Below are positions 55,159 to 64,000 of a DNA stretch of 64,000 nucleotides, in pieces. The notes under the pieces were generated by a model. That model made no database searches. It was not told where the DNA came from and saw only the letters and a list, made by a program, of their open reading frames with translations. Both the position numbers and the translations under genes were made by a program. The stretch is taken from NCBI RefSeq assembly GCF_003669015.1, contig NZ_CP033069.1, positions 3,854,501-3,918,500 on the forward strand, written 5' to 3'. Numbering within the stretch: position 1 is the first letter of the stretch; the number at the start of each line of letters is the position of its first letter. Source of the DNA: Acidovorax sp. 1608163. Lineage in GTDB: Bacteria > Pseudomonadota > Gammaproteobacteria > Burkholderiales > Burkholderiaceae_C.

Positions 55159-55959
55159 TCACAGCCGCACGGGAATGCCCCGCTCGGCCATGCGCTGCTT
55201 GGCCTGGCCCACGGTGTACTCACCGTAGTGGAAGATGCTTGCGGCCAGCACCGCATCAGCACCACCTTGCTGTACCCCGTCGGCCAGATGGTCCAGGTTG
55301 CCCACGCCGCCCGATGCGATCACGGGCACGGTCACTGCGTCGCTCACCGCGCGGGTCAGGGCCAAGTCAAAGCCCGACTTGGTGCCATCGCGGTCCATGC
55401 TGGTCAGCAAGATTTCTCCAGCGCCCCGCTGGGCCATTTCCTTGGCCCAGGCCAAGGCATCCAGCCCAGTGTTCTTGCGGCCGCCATGGCTGTACACATC
55501 CCAGCCGGGGCCCACCGGCTGGCCGTTGGCCCCCAGGCGCAAGGCATCTTCCTCAGACCGGCGCTTGGCATCGATGGCCACCACAATGCATTGGGCACCG
55601 TATTTGGCCGACACGGCGTTGATGACCTCGGGGTTGGCGATGGCGGCAGAGTTGAAGCTGGTCTTGTCCGCGCCCGCATTGAGCAGGCGGCGCACGTCTT
55701 CCACCGTGCGCACACCGCCACCCACCGTGAGCGGGATGAACACCTGGCTGGCCACCGCTTCGATGATGTGCAGGATCAAGTCACGGCCATCGCTGGTGGC
55801 GGTGATGTCCAGGAAGGTCAGCTCATCGGCGCCCTGGGCGTTGTAGCGCGCGGCAATCTCCACCGGGTCGCCTGCATCGCGCAGTTCAACAAAATTGACA
55901 CCTTTGACCACACGGCCTCCGGTCACGTCAAGGCAGGGAATGATGCGTTTGGCAAGCAT
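55159..55959 (-). CDS. hisF: Imidazole glycerol phosphate synthase, cyclase subunit
   Basis: A 266-residue TIM-barrel that uses ammonia from HisH to make imidazole glycerol phosphate and AICAR. The N-terminus [19 protein letters not shown] holds the catalytic Asp, and the second Asp is in [21 protein letters not shown] is typical. It is downstream of galE across 127 bases; hisH and hisA are not in the window. Confidence 0.96.
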
Positions 55960-56086
55960 GGCGCGGGAAGATTAGAAAGAGAATCAAAAAAGAAATGGGC
56001 TACCAGAGGGAGCGCCCCATTGGGCGAAGGCGCCAGCCCCTGCGCAGTCGCGCAAGATACCACGGCGCACAGCCCGCACAGCCGCT

Positions 56087-57100
56087 TCAGCGCTGCAAAC
56101 TCGCGGCCACGCCACTTTGCCAGCGCCACGCGTCTTCGCACATCTGGTCCAAGCCCAGTTGTGCAGACCAGCCCAGCAGCTGCTGGGCCAGGGCCGGGTC
56201 GGCCCAGCACTGCGCCACATCGCCAGGGCGGCGGTCCACGATGCGGTAGGGCACGGGGCGGCCGCTGGCCCGCTCAAATGCCTGCACCATGTCCAGCACC
56301 GACACAGGCCGGCCCGTGCCCAAATTCACCGTGAGCAAGCCTGGATGTTCGCGCAAGTAGCGCAACGCCGCCACATGCCCATCGGCCAGATCGCACACAT
56401 GGATGTAGTCACGCACCCCGGTGCCATCGGGCGTGGGGTAGTCGCCGCCATACACACTCAGCGCCTCGCGCAAGCCCACGGCCACCTGGGCCACATAGGG
56501 CAGCAGGTTGTTGGGAATGTCTTGCGGGTCCTCTCCGATCAACCCGCTGGCATGGGCACCCACCGGGTTGAAATACCGCAGGCGCGCAATGCGCCATTGC
56601 CCCGGCTCGGCCGCATCCACATCGGCCAGCACCTGCTCCATCATCAGCTTGCTCCAGCCATAGGGGTTGGTGGCAGACAGCGGAAAGCCCTCGCGGATGG
56701 GCACAGAAGCCGGGTCGCCATACACCGTGGCCGACGAGGAAAACACCAGCGTGCGCACATTCGCCGCCCGCATGGCGCCGAGCAAGGCCACGGTGCCCGC
56801 CACATTGTTGTCGTAGTAACGCAGCGGCTCGCGCACGGACTCCCCCACAGACTTGAGCGCCGCAAAGTGGATGACCGCGTCCACCGCATGCTCGGCAAAC
56901 ACGCGCTGCAGCAGAGCGGCATCGCGAATGTCACCTTCGATGAAAGGCACAGGCACGCCGGTGATGCGCTCGACACGCTCCAACACCGAGCGGCGGCTGT
57001 TGCATAGGTTGTCGAGCACCACGAATGGAATGCCTGCATTCGCCAAAGCGACGCAGGTGTGAGAGCCAATAAAGCCTGCCCCGCCGGTTACAAGAATCAC
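56087..57100 (-). CDS. galE: UDP-glucose/UDP-hexose 4-epimerase
   Basis: A 337-residue extended SDR epimerase. It has the NAD motif GGAGFIGSH (residues 6-14), catalytic Ser/Tyr in VFSSSATVYG and NPYGWSKLMME (YxxxK), and RYFNPVGAH. It interconverts UDP-glucose and UDP-galactose, perhaps also N-acetylated forms; specificity cannot be read reliably. It is divergent from the glycan locus at 57272, sharing a 171-base region, which suggests it supplies precursor. Confidence 0.94.
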   Translation of the reverse strand: MILVTGGAGFIGSHTCVALANAGIPFVVLDNLCNSRRSVLERVERITGVPVPFIEGDIRDAALLQRVFAEHAVDAVIHFAALKSVGESVREPLRYYDNNVAGTVALLGAMRAANVRTLVFSSSATVYGDPASVPIREGFPLSATNPYGWSKLMMEQVLADVDAAEPGQWRIARLRYFNPVGAHASGLIGEDPQDIPNNLLPYVAQVAVGLREALSVYGGDYPTPDGTGVRDYIHVCDLADGHVAALRYLREHPGLLTVNLGTGRPVSVLDMVQAFERASGRPVPYRIVDRRPGDVAQCWADPALAQQLLGWSAQLGLDQMCEDAWRWQSGVAASLQR

Positions 57101-57271: not shown

Positions 57272-58690
57272 ATGAACATGAACCCATCCCCGGGCATCTC
57301 TTCCTTGCAAAACCCACCCCCTTCTGCACTTGAAAGCACCGTGGTGCTGCGCCCTTCCGGCAGCCTGCTTCCTCGTGAGCGTGATGCGATGGCCTTTGCG
57401 TCGTGGCCCGCGTTTGTAGCTTCGGGCTTTGCCCCGTTGGGCTTTTACCTTGACGGCTGGACCGGGCCGGACGTGGCCACCCTGTGCGAATCCATACGGC
57501 ACAGCCCATGGTGGGATCGCCCGATCTGGGTATCGGAAAGCACTGAGCCCCAGCCGACGTGGGCAGATGCTACAGGCTCACTGAGCGAGGCCATTGCGGC
57601 AGGAGAGCGGGCCCTTGCAGCGCGCAGAAGCCTCAAGCTGGACCCCTCTGGCCTGCATTTTGATGAACGTGTGCTGTACTTCATGTACCTGCGCGACGGC
57701 GCAGAGCTGACCCCCTTGTGTGACCGCAACAGCGCACAGTTGTATCGCTACCCCTTGGTGGAAGCCTTGGCCCACGAGGGAGACGACGTGGCGGCTTGTT
57801 TGGCCACGCTGTCGCGGCGGCGCCTGCTGGAGCCTGCCGAACTAATCGACCGCACACGCCACTGCAGAGCCTGTGGCAGCGCCCACATCCACTACCTGGA
57901 TGTGTGCCCCCATTGCTCCAGCATCCAAATCAACAAAGCCCCTTCGCTGCACTGCTTTACCTGCGGCCATGTGGCGCCAGAAAATGATTTTCACGACGAC
58001 GGTGGCTTGAGCTGCCCAAAATGCAGCACAGCACTGCGCCACATTGGCGTGGACTACGACCGACCACTCACCCAATACGCTTGCGGCAGCTGCCACCATG
58101 TTTTTGTCGAGACCAGCGTGGTGGCACGGTGCCTGGACTGCCGCAACACCACCGAACCCAATGCGCTGGACGTGCGCGAGATCTCCTCGCTCAGGCTCAG
58201 CGCCCACGGGCGCGCCGCCCTCAGAGCGGGGCAAATCCGTGAGTCGTTCGCAGCCCTGGACACCGCCAACTATGTGGAGCCGGCGTACTTCCGCCGTCTG
58301 CTGGACTGGGCTTTGGCCACCCACGCCCGCCACAAGGAAATGCACTTCGCGCTCATGCTCGTGGAATTCCAGAACGCGGCCGAAGTCATCGAAAAACAAG
58401 GGGCTGCGCGCGTCTTCCTCATGCTGGACGAGTTTGCACGCCGTCTGCACGAGTTGCTGCGCACCTCGGACCTGACCACGCGCACCCAAGAAGAACGCTT
58501 GTGGTTGATGCTGCCGTTCTCTCACCCCGAAGGCCTGACAGCGCGACTGCAGAAGGTGCTGCAAGAGCAGTCCAGCCAGCATGGGGAAGCGGCTCTGCGC
58601 GTGCGCATTCGCCACCTGCAGATCCCTCACGATCTGCAAAACCACGATACCGCGGTACAACTCATGGGGCGCCTTCAGAACGCGGATTGA
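57272..58690 (+). CDS. TackOD1-like zinc-ribbon protein with degenerate GGDEF domain
   Basis: A 472-residue cytoplasmic protein. Six CxxC pairs between residues 198 and 290 (CRAC, CPHC, CFTC, CPKC, CGSC, CLDC) should form about three zinc ribbons, resembling the TackOD1 output domain. The C-terminal 120 residues have the GGDEF fold pattern (LRTSDLTTRTQEERLWLMLP), but GGDEF is replaced by QEERL, so cyclase activity is very unlikely. It might sense c-di-GMP or hold a complex together, as PelD does in Pel synthesis. It is first gene of the glycan locus, three bases before the glycosyltransferase gene. Confidence 0.75.
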   Translation: MNMNPSPGISSLQNPPPSALESTVVLRPSGSLLPRERDAMAFASWPAFVASGFAPLGFYLDGWTGPDVATLCESIRHSPWWDRPIWVSESTEPQPTWADATGSLSEAIAAGERALAARRSLKLDPSGLHFDERVLYFMYLRDGAELTPLCDRNSAQLYRYPLVEALAHEGDDVAACLATLSRRRLLEPAELIDRTRHCRACGSAHIHYLDVCPHCSSIQINKAPSLHCFTCGHVAPENDFHDDGGLSCPKCSTALRHIGVDYDRPLTQYACGSCHHVFVETSVVARCLDCRNTTEPNALDVREISSLRLSAHGRAALRAGQIRESFAALDTANYVEPAYFRRLLDWALATHARHKEMHFALMLVEFQNAAEVIEKQGAARVFLMLDEFARRLHELLRTSDLTTRTQEERLWLMLPFSHPEGLTARLQKVLQEQSSQHGEAALRVRIRHLQIPHDLQNHDTAVQLMGRLQNAD

Positions 58691-58693
58691 CCC

Positions 58694-60019
58694 ATGTGGG
58701 ATCAGATAGTTTTTGCCTTCGTCACGCTGTTTGCCAGCTCCACCCAGCAAAACTGGCTGGAACTGGCCTGGAAGTTCTTTCCCTTCGTCGTCCTCCTGGA
58801 GGCACCCTTCTTTTTGCTGGTGACCGCCGGCATGGTGCGCTACGGCCTGCGCAGGCACCGCCCCGAACGGCAACGAGAACGCTACCCACGGGTGTCGTGC
58901 GTAGTGACCTGCTATTCGGAAGGCGATGATGTGCGCAAGACCATTCAGTCGCTGGCGCAGCAGCTGTACCCGGGACACATCGAGATCATTGCCGTCATTG
59001 ACGGCGCCATTCAGAACCGCCCCACCTTGCTGGCCGCGCGCAATGCCCGCGGGCTTTTGGCAGGGCAAGCCAAGCGGGCGCTGGTGGTGCTGCCCAAGTG
59101 GCAACGCGGGGGACGGGTATCGTCCCTCAATGCAGGGCTTTCCATCGCCACGGGCGAAATCGTCATGGCGCTGGATGGCGACACGTCATTCGACAACGAC
59201 ATGGTGCGCAATGCAACGCGTCACTTTGACGACCCCGGGGTGGTGGGCGTGGCAGGCAACCTGCGTGTGCGCAACGCCAAGAAAACGCTGGTGACCCGGC
59301 TGCAGGCGCTGGAATACATCCTGTCGATCGGTGCTGGCAAAACCGGCCTGTCCGAGTTCAACATCGTCAACAACATCTCGGGCGCCTTTGGCGTATTCCG
59401 CACCGGGTTCATCCGCAACCTGGGCGGTTGGGATGCGGGGTCGGCCGAAGACCTGGACATGACCACGCGGATCAAACAGTACTTTGGCAGACACCCCGGG
59501 CTGCGCATCGTGTTTGACCCACATGCCGTAGGGCACACCGATGCACCCGACACCTGGCGCATTTTTTTTCGCCAGCGCTTGCGTTGGGACGGGGACATGT
59601 TCTACCTGTTCATCCGCAAGTTCCGCTTCAACCTCAGGCCCAGGCTGCTGGGTTGGCGCAATTTTTTGTTTGTGGCCATCAACGGGCTGGTCATGCAAGT
59701 GCTGATGCCTTTTCTGATCGTTGCCTACACCGGGGTGATGCTCTTCACCCTGCCCATCGGGGCGGTGCTGGGCGTTCTGGCATTTATCTACTTGGTCTAT
59801 CTGTGCGCCATTCTTTTTTATTTCATGCTCTACGTGATTGCCGTCTCTGAACGACCTGTAGAGGATCTGGACTACCTGCGCTTTCTGCCTTTGGTGCCGT
59901 TGTTCGCTTTTGTCAACCGCATCCACTGCGCCTTCTCCATCCTGCAGGAGCTTTTCCTGAATTCGCACCTCGACTCCTCGATGGCACCATGGTGGGTGCT
60001 GCGCAAAACCAAGTTCTGA
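58694..60019 (+). CDS. Processive family-2 glycosyltransferase
   Basis: A 441-residue membrane GT2 of the cellulose, hyaluronan or PNAG synthase type. One TM helix (about 27-50) precedes the catalytic domain with VVTCYSEGDD, the metal motif DGD (161-163), the catalytic AEDLD (ED at 252-253) and QRLRW (294-298), followed by about three TM helices (320-385). It probably polymerises a sugar from a UDP donor and starts moving the chain through the membrane. No PilZ domain is present, unlike BcsA. It is followed one base later by the TolC-like fusion gene. Confidence 0.88.
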   Translation: MWDQIVFAFVTLFASSTQQNWLELAWKFFPFVVLLEAPFFLLVTAGMVRYGLRRHRPERQRERYPRVSCVVTCYSEGDDVRKTIQSLAQQLYPGHIEIIAVIDGAIQNRPTLLAARNARGLLAGQAKRALVVLPKWQRGGRVSSLNAGLSIATGEIVMALDGDTSFDNDMVRNATRHFDDPGVVGVAGNLRVRNAKKTLVTRLQALEYILSIGAGKTGLSEFNIVNNISGAFGVFRTGFIRNLGGWDAGSAEDLDMTTRIKQYFGRHPGLRIVFDPHAVGHTDAPDTWRIFFRQRLRWDGDMFYLFIRKFRFNLRPRLLGWRNFLFVAINGLVMQVLMPFLIVAYTGVMLFTLPIGAVLGVLAFIYLVYLCAILFYFMLYVIAVSERPVEDLDYLRFLPLVPLFAFVNRIHCAFSILQELFLNSHLDSSMAPWWVLRKTKF

Positions 60020-60020
60020 C

Positions 60021-62198
60021 ATGTTGAAACGCAAGGATTTTTGGGCCCGCACACCCTTTGTCGTGGCCTTTTGGCTGGGGCTGCAAGCCTCCACGGCATG
60101 GGCCAACGCAGTACCGTTGTCCGATCTTGAAACCTGGGCCCAATCCGCAGCCCCCGCTGTGCGCGTTGCGTTGGCAGAAAAGGACCTGGCAGCACATCGC
60201 GCAGAAGCTGCCAAAGCCAGCCAAGGTGGTCGCCTGTTTGGTGGGGCCAGCCTGGGCAATGCACGCGAGGCCGTGACCGACACCACCAGCCGCAGCTACC
60301 AGCGGGCACAGATGCAGCTCGGCGTGCGGTGGCCCCTGCTGGGCAGCCGTGAAGCCCAACTGCGCAACGTAAGCGAAGCGGAACAAGCGACCACGGCAAG
60401 GCAGGTGCGCCTGCAGCAAACCCAAAACGAAGCCGTGCAAGCGGTACGCCGCGCCTATGTGCGCCACCTGCGCAGCGGGCAGCGCATTGCGCTTGTCGAG
60501 GCCTTTATGGCAGGACGCTCCACCACACAGGGCCTGCTACAACGCCGCACTCAAGCCGGTTGGATGCTGGAGGCGGAACGCTTGGGGCTGATGGCCACCT
60601 TTGACGCAGCGGAGGCCACGCTCCGGGCCCAACGCGCAGCACAAGAGGCAACGCTGCGTGAACTGTCGCGGCTGACCGGGCGCATGGTTCAAGCCGTTCA
60701 AGCGGCCCCCCTGACGTGGCCCGACGTGTGCCACCACCCTGAGACACTGCGGGCGCAAGCCGATGAACACCCCACCGTGCTGCTGGCACGCCTCGAGCTT
60801 GAGGCCGCAGACCAAATTGCAGGCCACTTGCGCAAAGAAGGCATTGCGGCGGGTGTGTCTGTGGCCCAAGGCATTAGCAAGGACCTGGGTGGCCCCCCAG
60901 GACACAACACCACCGTGGGTATCGACATCTCCATACCACTGGACTGGCGCGGGCAACGTGACGCCACACTAGGACAAATACAAAGCGAGCGCCACCGCGC
61001 AGAAAGCCTGTTGGAACTGCGACGAGGCGAATTTCTGGAGGGCCTGGAACAAGCCCTGGGCCAGTGGCACCTGAGTCAAGCCGAAGCGGCTGCACCGATG
61101 AAACAGCTGAGCGCCGCCACCGAAACCTTGCGTGTGGCCATGCTGCGGCATGAGCGCTTGGACGATGGTGACGGCTACGCGCGCCTGCTCACTGCCCGCT
61201 ACGCGCTCATGCAGGTCGCCCTGCAAGTGGTCGACGCACAGGAGCGCCGCGAGGTGGCCGAGTTAGCGCTGGCCGCGTGGTCTAGCAGCGGGTGCAGCCA
61301 TCCTGGCGTCAACCCCCAAGACAAGTTGACGGCAGCGCTAGCGCCTACCTTGCTTGCGCTATCACCCCAGGTCGCCAATGCCCCGCCAGACACGGCAACA
61401 ACAGCCCCACAACGCACGCTGCGAAGCACCGAAGGCACCTCCGATTCAAGTCTAGGCTGGTACGTGTGGGATGGGCAGGCCATGCTCCAGCGTCCAGAGC
61501 AACTGCGAACACTCCCGCCCGAAAGCCGCCGCGTTCTGCTGTCCTTCACCGCCAAACAGCTCACAGGGCTGGAGCAGCCTGCGGGCCGTAGGCAACTTAG
61601 CCAATTCATCACCCACGCCCAGCACAGGGGGCTGACCGTTGAGCTGCTGCTAGGCGAGCCCCTCTGGGTGCTTCCTTCACACAGGCAAAACCTTCTGGAC
61701 CAGTTGGCGCGCATTCGCGACCTGCCTTTCCATGCCCTGCAACTGGACCTGGAACGCAGCCAACTGCCCGAGGCCGATCAACCGCAATGGGGCGACCTGG
61801 TGGTGGAAACCCTGCGCGCTACGCACGCCGTGGCGCCTTGGCCCCTGGGACTCACAACCCACTACCGTGAGCTGGAATCTCCAGACTTCGCACAAAAGGT
61901 GCACGCCGCAGGTGCGACCGAACTGACCGCCATGGTCTACGTCAGCAACCCGGCCCGAGTGGTTGAAATTGTGAAGGGCCTGCTGCCACTTCAAAGCCTG
62001 CAAAGCCCTGACGGGCTGCGCTGGTCCATCGCCCAAAGCGTGGAGCGCACTTTGTCGCCACAAGAGAGTAGCTATCCAGCGGGCAAAGCCACCGCCTTGC
62101 AACGCTGGAAGGAACTGGCACAGGCCTTGTCTCCAGAGCCAGGCTTTGGCGGCATCGTCGTGCAGTCGTGGGAAGAATTTAAAGAGGCACGCCCTTGA
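60021..62198 (+). CDS. TolC-like outer membrane protein fused to a TIM-barrel-like domain
   Basis: A 725-residue exported protein. After a signal peptide (about 1-29), residues 30-430 have the two helical-hairpin repeats of TolC/OEP proteins (ERLGLMATFDAAEATLRAQRAAQEATLRELSRLTGRM region). A low-complexity linker (about 430-472) leads to a C-terminal region (475-725) with alternating strand/helix pattern and LQLDLERSQ near 572-580, like a TIM-barrel hydrolase. The fusion is unusual. The C-terminal domain could trim the glycan as it leaves, or bind it. The stop overlaps the next start. Confidence 0.75.
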   Translation: MLKRKDFWARTPFVVAFWLGLQASTAWANAVPLSDLETWAQSAAPAVRVALAEKDLAAHRAEAAKASQGGRLFGGASLGNAREAVTDTTSRSYQRAQMQLGVRWPLLGSREAQLRNVSEAEQATTARQVRLQQTQNEAVQAVRRAYVRHLRSGQRIALVEAFMAGRSTTQGLLQRRTQAGWMLEAERLGLMATFDAAEATLRAQRAAQEATLRELSRLTGRMVQAVQAAPLTWPDVCHHPETLRAQADEHPTVLLARLELEAADQIAGHLRKEGIAAGVSVAQGISKDLGGPPGHNTTVGIDISIPLDWRGQRDATLGQIQSERHRAESLLELRRGEFLEGLEQALGQWHLSQAEAAAPMKQLSAATETLRVAMLRHERLDDGDGYARLLTARYALMQVALQVVDAQERREVAELALAAWSSSGCSHPGVNPQDKLTAALAPTLLALSPQVANAPPDTATTAPQRTLRSTEGTSDSSLGWYVWDGQAMLQRPEQLRTLPPESRRVLLSFTAKQLTGLEQPAGRRQLSQFITHAQHRGLTVELLLGEPLWVLPSHRQNLLDQLARIRDLPFHALQLDLERSQLPEADQPQWGDLVVETLRATHAVAPWPLGLTTHYRELESPDFAQKVHAAGATELTAMVYVSNPARVVEIVKGLLPLQSLQSPDGLRWSIAQSVERTLSPQESSYPAGKATALQRWKELAQALSPEPGFGGIVVQSWEEFKEARP

Positions 62199-63276
62199 AA
62201 ATACAGTTTGATGTTCCTCCCAGCTCTCCACAGGAGAGCAATGGCCTGTCCGTGCGCTACGCTGCCTCCAAACGCCAGGTGCCACGTTGGCGCTGGTACC
62301 TTCTGCTGGCCATGGTGCTCACACCTCCCGCCTACCTTATGGGACGGTTTGCCGTGTCGTACTGGTGGGAGACAACGCCCGGATTGGTCGTGACCGAACA
62401 AGTGGTCGTTCGGGCGCCTGTGGCCGGTCAAGTTGCACGGATTGCTGACGTTGGCGAACGGCTGCGCGCTGGCCAGGCTTTGATGGACTTGGAGCAGGAA
62501 CCATCGGCATTACCAGACGTGGCAACACCCGCCAACCCCCAACCCCCTGTGCAGCCCATCGCGGAGCCATTCGCGCCCAACCAACCCCTGGCCATCCGTT
62601 TGTCCATGCAGGAGGAGACCCAACGTCTCACGCTGCAGCAACTGGCGCTTCAACAGGAAAAACTGAAAGCCTTGCAAGCCCTTCGTGCAGAGGGTGCTGC
62701 GACGCGCAACGAAGTCGACAATGCCCAGGCCGTGGTGCTGCAAACACAAGCAGAAGCCAGCAGGGCCCGCGCTGCGGCCAGTGAATCTCGAAGCCTGCTC
62801 GCGCAGGCACGTGTGGCCACACTCATCCCAACGCCAACTACCGCCACGTCCTCCAGATCCGACAAGACCCAACCCACCAGAACGCCGACGTTGAAGGCCC
62901 CCTTTGACGCAATCGTAGTGCGACAGCTGGTTCGTTCCGGGGAACACGTAGAAGCAGGTGCCGATGTGGCCGTGGTGCAGGGCACAGCCAAATCCCCCTG
63001 GTACACGCCTACCTGCCCCCCGGACAAGCACGCTATGCCCAACCGGGCAGACTAGCCACCCTGCACTTCATGGATGGCCGCAGCCTGCGCGCCGAGGTAC
63101 TGGACGTGGTTGCAGAGGCAGAACGTACGCCTGCTGAGCGCGTCTCGCCCCTCACACCCCGCATGCCGTCGATCGTGGTGCGCCTCAAACCGCAGGCCGA
63201 TCTGCCACCCGGCTACCGCATTCACTACCTGCCATTGGATGTGCGGTTCGACTGGGTTTGGGGCGGATGGTGGTAA
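62195..63276 (+). pseudogene. HlyD-type periplasmic adaptor, frameshifted
   Basis: A membrane-fusion-type adaptor: one TM helix (about 32-57), a biotinyl-lipoyl half (VVVRAPVAGQVARI), a coiled-coil hairpin (about 140-215), the second half (LKAPFDAIVVRQLVRSGEHV) and a beta domain. The frame breaks at the C5 run 62994-62998. One added C continues as VHAYLPPGQARYAQPG and ends at 63276 with WVWGGWW, giving 360 residues. The TTG start at 62195 overlaps the previous stop and has AGAGG upstream. It should link the GT2 synthase to the TolC-like protein. Confidence 0.82.
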
Positions 63277-63723
63277 CAGCCCAAAGAAGCATCCGCGTCT
63301 AGTCCCGGTTCAGCAAATCTCGCTATCGCACGCGCACTTCATTCGCCTGGGCGAGTGAAGGTGAAGCAAGAACCGAAAGCCCCTTGCACCGGTGTGTGGC
63401 TGTACACCCACACCGGTCATGCACGGATTGCGAACAATGGTCAACACCTCAAGAACAAAGGCCGCGCTGACCGGGTAACTTTCCCAAAGCTCCAACGCGT
63501 CTCCACAACGATCTCGGGTGCACCGAGATAGCCACATTAGTGCGTACACACATCCACCATGCCCCTTTATTTATTGAGGATTTTCTTGATACGCATCTAG
63601 CGTCCTAAAATCAAAACCTTTTGTTACACCCATTGAGCAGCATGGGCATGCGAATGCTGTCGGGCATTGCCAAGTGATGGTCGGTCCTGCACCATGTACA
63701 GCACTCCGCTACCACCACACACC
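63277..63723. other. 447-base gap inside the glycan locus
   Basis: No gene was recognised on either strand. It contains a perfect 9-bp inverted repeat, ACCGGTGTG (63388-63396) with CACACCGGT (63409-63417), without a U-tract. An AT-rich stretch at 63568-63625 is a plausible promoter site for the next gene, although no well-spaced hexamers were found. Confidence 0.45.
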
Positions 63724-64000
63724 ATGATCTGGTCACTGCGCGGCTTCCTTCTATTGACGCTGAGTCTGGCCTCCCTGTGGGTGGCTGACGAGGCTTCGGC
63801 CAAGACCCGGCCCGCCATTGCACTGCACTATGGCCACAATGCGCCCCTGGAAGACTTGAAGGTGTTTGACATCGTCGTGGTGGAGCCAGACCACGGCTAT
63901 GACCCCATCGCACAGCGCGCCAAGGGAAGCGAGCTTTACGCCTACACCTCGGTGGCCGAGGTTCAACCCAGCCGCAGTTATTTCAAAGACATCCCGGCCG
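63724..64000 (+). CDS. PelA/GH114-like secreted glycoside hydrolase (cut by window end)
   Basis: The first 92 residues are visible. A signal peptide ends about ASA-K (residue 26). The mature start has ALHYGHNAPLEDLKVFDIVV, VEPDHGY and ELYAYTSVAEVQPSR, which resemble the first strands of the GH114 (endo-alpha-1,4-polygalactosaminidase) barrel and the N-terminal hydrolase domain of PelA. A polysaccharide deacetylase domain often follows in such proteins, but that part is beyond the window. ATG at 63724 is preferred; an in-frame ATG lies at 63694. Confidence 0.7.
   Translation, partial: MIWSLRGFLLLTLSLASLWVADEASAKTRPAIALHYGHNAPLEDLKVFDIVVVEPDHGYDPIAQRAKGSELYAYTSVAEVQPSRSYFKDIPA

Follow-up and report, generated by a model that had tools for sequence, protein, structure and literature searches.

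A conserved, probably mobile four-gene cassette proposed to secrete a polysaccharide through a TolC/HlyD-type exit

Near one end of a 64,000-nucleotide stretch of Acidovorax sp. 1608163 DNA (contig NZ_CP033069.1, positions 3,854,501 to 3,918,500; hereafter the window), a run of same-strand genes combines a putative regulator, a polysaccharide synthase and the parts of an export channel. This raises the question of whether these genes constitute a secretion system in their own right or belong to the pel exopolysaccharide operon that follows them; the original prediction had treated five of them as a hybrid Pel locus. We found that four of the genes, here named A to D, represent a real, conserved and probably mobile system, and we propose that they represent a new arrangement in which synthase-dependent polysaccharide secretion uses a tripartite-type exit. 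Chance origin of the gene set is excluded, since it recurs in 80 loci from several phyla. We estimate a probability of about 0.68 that A to D form a self-contained, mobile, synthase-dependent polysaccharide secretion system, gated by cyclic diguanosine monophosphate (c-di-GMP) and with a TolC/HlyD exit.

The four genes all lie on the plus strand. Gene A (57272..58690; Pfam) encodes a TackOD1 zinc ribbon with a degenerate GGDEF domain, and gene B (58694..60019; Pfam, NCBIfam, motifs and solved-chain matches) a processive-type polysaccharide synthase of 441 residues from glycosyltransferase family 2 (GT2). Gene C (60021..62198; OEP match in Pfam and predicted fold) encodes a TolC-type outer-membrane factor with a C-terminal triosephosphate isomerase (TIM) barrel, and gene D (62195..63273; HlyD_3 match in Pfam and family profile) a HlyD/EmrA-type periplasmic adaptor that is frame-broken in this genome. 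Open reading frame coordinates leave gaps of 3 bp between A and B and 1 bp between B and C, and C overlaps D by 4 bp, consistent with the tight packing predicted for these four genes.

The TackOD1 domain of A (Pfam PF18551; residues 130-308, about 57659-58195) was matched at 7.4e-61 and 205 bits against a curated cut-off of 32; the CXXC ladder is present, and 11 Cys are invariant across 58 aligned rows. The C-terminal GGDEF domain (Pfam; residues 327-472, about 58250-58687) gave a weak match (1.5e-6), PelD_GGDEF matched at 0.042, and the fold search of A covered mainly residues 305-472. The GGDEF signature is missing at its site in all 76 A rows; a loose pattern did pick up a GGDEF-like string in two loci (L018 and L020), yet near residues 74-81 and so off-site. 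This confirmed A as a zinc-ribbon protein with a dead GGDEF domain. An RxxD motif at residues 397-400 (58460-58471) is a predicted c-di-GMP I-site, and both R397 and D400 are kept in 68 of the 76 rows.

The identification of B as a processive GT2 was likewise upheld by matches to Pfam GT2 families and by a full set of synthase motifs (D103, D161xD163, E252-D253 and Q294RxRW298), which is intact in 81 of 81 rows. The nearest solved chains of B include hyaluronan and chitin synthases, and the alignment with hyaluronan synthases extends across residues 51-385. No PilZ match was found in B with Pfam. The top NCBIfam match was PgaC_IcaA at 139 bits, far under the cut-off of 422.3, and B was therefore rejected as a PgaC/IcaA synthase of poly-N-acetylglucosamine (PNAG).

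C was originally described as a TolC fusion. The TolC-like part stood (OEP), and the fusion is corrected to a TolC-type protomer at residues 31-434 (about 60111-61322; OEP and predicted fold) followed by a TIM-barrel glycosidase-like domain at residues 472-725 (about 61434-62195; predicted fold). None of five barrels checked had a Pfam match above cut-off, and the best solved-chain sequence match was a weak alignment to 10yv (5e-4). The conserved barrel residues are D576xE578, H614, R616, M638xY640, E675 and Q715. GH18 chitinase-like glycosidases typically have DxE where strand 4 ends and MxY on strand 6, and the barrel may be related to them. Stand-alone proteins related to the barrel were also sought, and eight unnamed ones of 150-331 residues were returned. 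For D, the closest family among solved chains is EmrA (profile match 1.8e-23), and the predicted HlyD-type identity held (HlyD_3), but not the intactness of the gene: a first frame (62195-63055) gives way to a second (62908-63273) within their overlap at 62908-63055. In the near relative G033, which is 95.3% identical over 17 kb, D is a single open frame of 364 codons.

We scanned a genome collection with B, retained the best 80 of 149 relatives and as much as 10 kb of sequence on either side, and ran profiles of our own proteins on the open frames of at least 60 codons in these loci, which span several phyla by the names in their records. Rows left out numbered five for A (under 350 bits), five for D (under 200 bits), none for B and 18 for C, the last comprising 14 loci without C, L028, and L023, L038 and L073 (under 350 bits); the alignments behind the models and profiles, numbered A1 to A5, took in 46 of 63, 58 of 76, 50 of 81, 40 of 76 and 44 of 59 rows. 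A adjoins B, and D accompanies it, in 78 of 78 loci with sufficient contig reach, the other two in each case being end-truncated; in L013, L033 and L034, A is present and overlaps an over-long B frame. C was found in 65 of the 80 loci, with 14 A-B-D loci (in Vibrio, Photobacterium, Pseudoalteromonas, Tolumonas, Oleispira, Methylococcales and the BD1-7 clade) and one, L028, without a clear call. Gene order is mostly A-B-C-D, and C-D-A-B in Synergistota loci. Thus the expected co-occurrence was found for genes one to four and not for gene five. Clustering of neighbours across the 80 loci identified no fixed fifth partner; the largest clusters (19, 13 and 12 loci, 110-7552 bp from the cassette) appeared by eye to be ABC-transporter-like, sensor-kinase-like and response-regulator-like.

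A reverse search with TackOD1 in 398 genomes of the phylum, in which at most eight first-look candidates were scored per genome, gave 16 matches above cut-off in 15 genomes, including our own. Each of the 15 matches other than our own lies next to a relative of B, unlike the three that scored below cut-off. Among the more distant of these loci, the layout is C-D-A-B in L107, D-A-B with a different outer gene and a tetratricopeptide repeat (TPR) gene in L108 and L109, and A-B-D in L112 (genome G411); in genome G319, B and D were seen in L110 and L111, and A in two shorter stretches (L096 and L101). At the place of TolC, there is an AMIN match in L109 (9963-13495) and no Pfam match in L108 (11687-14510), with the TPR gene in both; this outer gene and the TPR gene perhaps form another kind of exit. 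One of the two G319 cassettes adjoins a second GT2 with PilZ and another HlyD-like gene (L111:10158-13582).

Six plasmid records match B at 1e-60, and three of these were read. The Aeromonas caviae plasmid pKAM329_3 (29 kb, MOBP) carries all four cassette genes as a block, which lies between partition and toxin-antitoxin genes and a recombinase; the 13 kb read holds seven further annotated features, none of them a polysaccharide gene, in PLSDB gene tables that are incomplete. Plesiomonas p1 carries A-B-D. On a Rhodobacterales plasmid, the two domains of A are encoded by separate genes, one TackOD1 and one GGDEF-like (L147:5623-6908); B, D and galE follow, with overlaps at the last two junctions. 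The plasmid copies and the patchy occurrence suggest that the cassette is probably horizontally mobile.

We propose the following mechanism. B, in the inner membrane, would polymerise a sugar chain from uridine diphosphate (UDP)-sugars and extrude it, as its motifs suggest. By likeness to PelD, A would sense c-di-GMP at the I-site of its inactive GGDEF domain and then turn B on; TackOD1 probably serves as the contact or switch. D, being EmrA-like, would bridge the periplasm from B to C, in the manner of EmrA and TolC, and the channel of C would release the polymer outside, while the conserved residues of the barrel suggest that it may trim or release the chain from the periplasmic side. A linked galE would supply an epimerised precursor; in the window, a galE-like UDP-hexose 4-epimerase gene (56087..57100, minus strand; Epimerase match 2.8e-56) diverges from the cassette. 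More tentatively, and with odds that we place a little below even, the cassette may define a new class of machine, in which a GT2 passes its chain directly to an EmrA-type adaptor and a TolC-type channel, each channel trimer bearing three glycosidase barrels in the periplasm, and in which c-di-GMP acts as the gate through a zinc-ribbon receptor; bacterial TackOD1 would then be, fundamentally, the domain by which this machine contacts its synthase.

Several observations weigh against this proposal. The counts rest on the best 80 of 149 loci, and the pairwise distances among the four proteins, which correlate strongly (r between 0.89 and 0.95 across 60-76 loci, against at most 0.15 after shuffling), fit joint inheritance but may also reflect plain species history. 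C is missing from the 14 A-B-D loci of the 80, from the distant phylum members G319 and G411 and, among the three plasmids read, from those of Plesiomonas and Rhodobacterales; a dedicated channel is therefore not obligatory, and the A-B-D genomes would need another TolC. In L107, C was seen by profile only (80 bits) without an OEP match, and the outer gene in L108 and L109 also lacks an OEP match. The I-site Arg is absent from six full-length A rows and two partial ones, and five of the six (L008, L011, L016, L052 and L068) are precisely those loci where a galE away from the his site described below abuts the cassette. Gating by c-di-GMP thus appears lost in this branch, which limits the gating claim to the larger part of the cassettes; the branch perhaps represents c-di-GMP-independent cassettes with their own sugar supply. 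Since galE lies near only 10 of the 80 cassettes, it does not belong to the core, and different lineages may use different sugars. Finally, with D broken, the cassette of our strain may be inactive or mis-sequenced.

We weighed the proposed polysaccharide secretion system against other explanations. EmrA-like adaptors and TolC-like channels are best known from small-molecule efflux, and B could instead make a glycolipid or short glycan, with D and C exporting this molecule or, alternatively, a toxin or drug; an ABC-transporter-like gene (assigned by eye from one sequence) lies within 10 kb in 19 loci and less than 450 bp away in five. However, B has the full D, DxD, ED and QRxRW set as well as its hyaluronan synthase match, and the transporter cluster is scattered 110-6482 bp away, so that no transporter is a fixed partner. 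We regard this explanation as unlikely. Rather less probable is a PNAG- or cellulose-type system in which the adaptor and channel merely substitute for PgaA or BcsC: the best NCBIfam match of B does point to PgaC_IcaA, but its score is far too low, and no fixed fifth gene was found by clustering, the method applied to the flanks in place of PgaB, PgaD, BcsB and BcsC profiles.

We consider it very improbable that the cassette works with the adjoining pel operon as a five-gene hybrid, feeding or regulating Pel. The fifth gene of the original prediction is pelA, whose start (GH114 part, 63667..64000, plus strand; 3.6e-20) lies outside the cassette, some 400-600 bp past D, and is truncated by the window end. 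Beyond that end, the same genome continues with the polysaccharide-deacetylase piece of pelA, pelB (barrel match 3e-93), a pelC-like lipoprotein gene, pelD (PelD_GGDEF 1.4e-31), a TPR gene in the place of pelE, pelF (DUF3492 4e-101 and glycosyltransferase group 1), pelG (2.7e-155), a Spherulin4-family gene and hisA. With pelB to pelG following in order, the fifth gene opens a normal pelABCDEFG operon, and its membership of the set did not hold. In favour of a hybrid, cassette and pel are adjacent in our genome and G033, with the same galE beside both, and a simple promoter and terminator scan of the D-pelA interval, which detects T-tailed hairpins only, found nothing between them. Against it, this adjacency occurs only in those two genomes, a profile search of the 80 loci, with flanks of at most 10 kb on each side, detected no pel genes, the pel operon already has its own PelB, PelC-like protein, PelD, PelF and PelG, and at the hisF-galE site pel occurs alone in six genomes, the cassette alone in three and both in two. 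Across 36 genomes of the genus, the cassette is present in six (two partial or split), pel in eight and both in two, where independence expects about 1.3. The five-gene unit was therefore rejected, as no pel gene was detected in the 80 loci and both modules occur separately at the his site; the pel operon is a neighbour of the cassette, not a component. In our strain pelA (L001:9667-12568; window 63667 onwards) is split across three frames, whereas in G033 it is a single open frame of 977 codons; the breaks in D and pelA may reflect real decay or assembly error.

Among known systems, the cassette resembles EmrAB-TolC in that EmrA is the closest solved match of D and C is TolC-like; it differs in its inner-membrane partner, a polysaccharide synthase, whereas EmrB is a major facilitator superfamily (MFS) transporter. 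No name for the A-B-C-D set was found in the literature searched, which comprised open-licence PMC papers, so that a subscription paper could exist; the original prediction likewise named no characterised system with its gene set. The words "HlyD" and "TolC" are absent from the main text of a review (PMC8461298) and of an operon survey (PMC7112194). The XcsAB-TolC proposal for cyanobacterial cellulose secretion (Maeda et al. 2018, as cited in PMC12430437) likewise assembles a GT2 synthase, a HlyD-like adaptor and a TolC-type channel into a tripartite exit; in our loci, GT2 and D occur together in 78 of 78 testable loci and C in 65 of 80. The passages of PMC12430437 on this model also describe an endoglucanase, XcsC, in the xcs operon of some species, which parallels the barrel of C. 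However, the XcsAB-TolC genes lie dispersed or in operons for which no TolC is described, whereas the cassette operon includes the channel, and XcsA carries PilZ, whereas the cassette regulator is a separate TackOD1-GGDEF protein; the TIM barrel fused to the channel is a further contrast. The same passages term the model unvalidated and say that it is questioned because its genes are not in one operon.

BgsBA, for rhizobial mixed-linkage beta-glucan, pairs a GT2 with a HlyD-domain protein in a small operon, like the 14 A-B-D loci, and is activated by c-di-GMP post-translationally (PMC9495663). Compared by description only, the BgsA C-terminus itself binds c-di-GMP, unlike the separate A; the passages on BgsBA describe no TackOD1-GGDEF protein, and "TolC" and "outer membrane" are absent from the main text of that paper. 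The passages on Pel in PMC7112168 and PMC8461298 describe a degenerate GGDEF with an RxxD I-site as c-di-GMP receptor beside a synthase, and linkage of galE to pel loci; according to the former, PelD and a Bacillus relative bind c-di-GMP at the I-site. In contrast, Pel uses PelF, PelG and PelB/PelC where the cassette has a GT2, HlyD and TolC-barrel, and the GAF and membrane parts of PelD are replaced by TackOD1 in A. No PelB, PelC, PelF or PelG was detected in the conserved unit of the 80 loci, which places it outside Pel. Hence, of the Pel-like logic built from different parts in the original prediction, the GT2, the TolC/HlyD exit and the PelD-like degenerate GGDEF survive, but not the five-gene unit.

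Handover from a synthase to a HlyD-type adaptor and a TolC-type channel is an open proposal in cyanobacteria (PMC12430437). With the three exit parts in one operon across several phyla, the tripartite export proposal becomes testable by simple deletions. The cassette also gives bacterial TackOD1 a fixed partner; the one paper returned for this word in an open-access literature search describes the domain, in the relevant passage, from archaea and "some bacteria" and terms its function obscure (PMC5847659). Going by its predicted fold, C would combine an outer-membrane channel and a glycosidase-like domain in one protein.

What sugar the cassette might export can be considered from galE. Eleven galE occurrences were found in the 80 wider loci (960 kb of flank; one match under 200 bits, in L029 at 41 bits, was dropped), ten of which lie no more than 700 bp from the cassette, and four of these ten are the his site again. 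Cassette-near galE genes encode Cys, Ser or Val, and no Tyr, at the position matching E. coli GalE Tyr299, our own protein having Cys; presumably, a residue other than Tyr at this gate position would admit N-acetylated sugars. Linkage to galE in some lineages suggests a galactose or N-acetylgalactosamine precursor. The galE evidence as a whole, combined with the resemblance of B to hyaluronan and chitin synthases and of the barrel to GH18 enzymes, gives a weak indication that galE-bearing lineages make an N-acetylhexosamine polymer. In the galE tree, four of 16 inner branches are well supported, and cassette- and pel-linked galE are intermingled; in the hisF tree, the long branch of L104 is meaningless, its hisF being clipped by the locus end.

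The junction between hisA and hisF (window 55159-57100, L001/L082) is a recurrent insertion place in the genus, holding galE with pel, galE with the cassette, or both. Of the 36 genomes sampled, hisF was present in 35; galE, cassette and pel lie beside it in two (our own and G033), galE and cassette in three (G007, G011 and G032, where both A and C are split between two frames in the last), galE and pel in six, and galE alone in two (G012 and G009). Neither module nor galE was found there in 20 of the 35, where the hisA-hisF gap is up to 136 bp, or 565 bp in G028. These calls leave out G003 and G027 (contig ends); the hisA end was reached in our genome, the three cassette-only and three of the six pel-only genomes, and the stretch stops short in G033, G029, G006 and G026. 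Every resolved site that holds a module also has galE (11 of 11), versus 2 of 22 sites without one, in related genomes that are not independent counts. The Spherulin4-family secreted protein gene that follows pelG in our genome (L082:4724-6208) is also present in five of the six pel-only loci, the sixth, L117, having been read less far.

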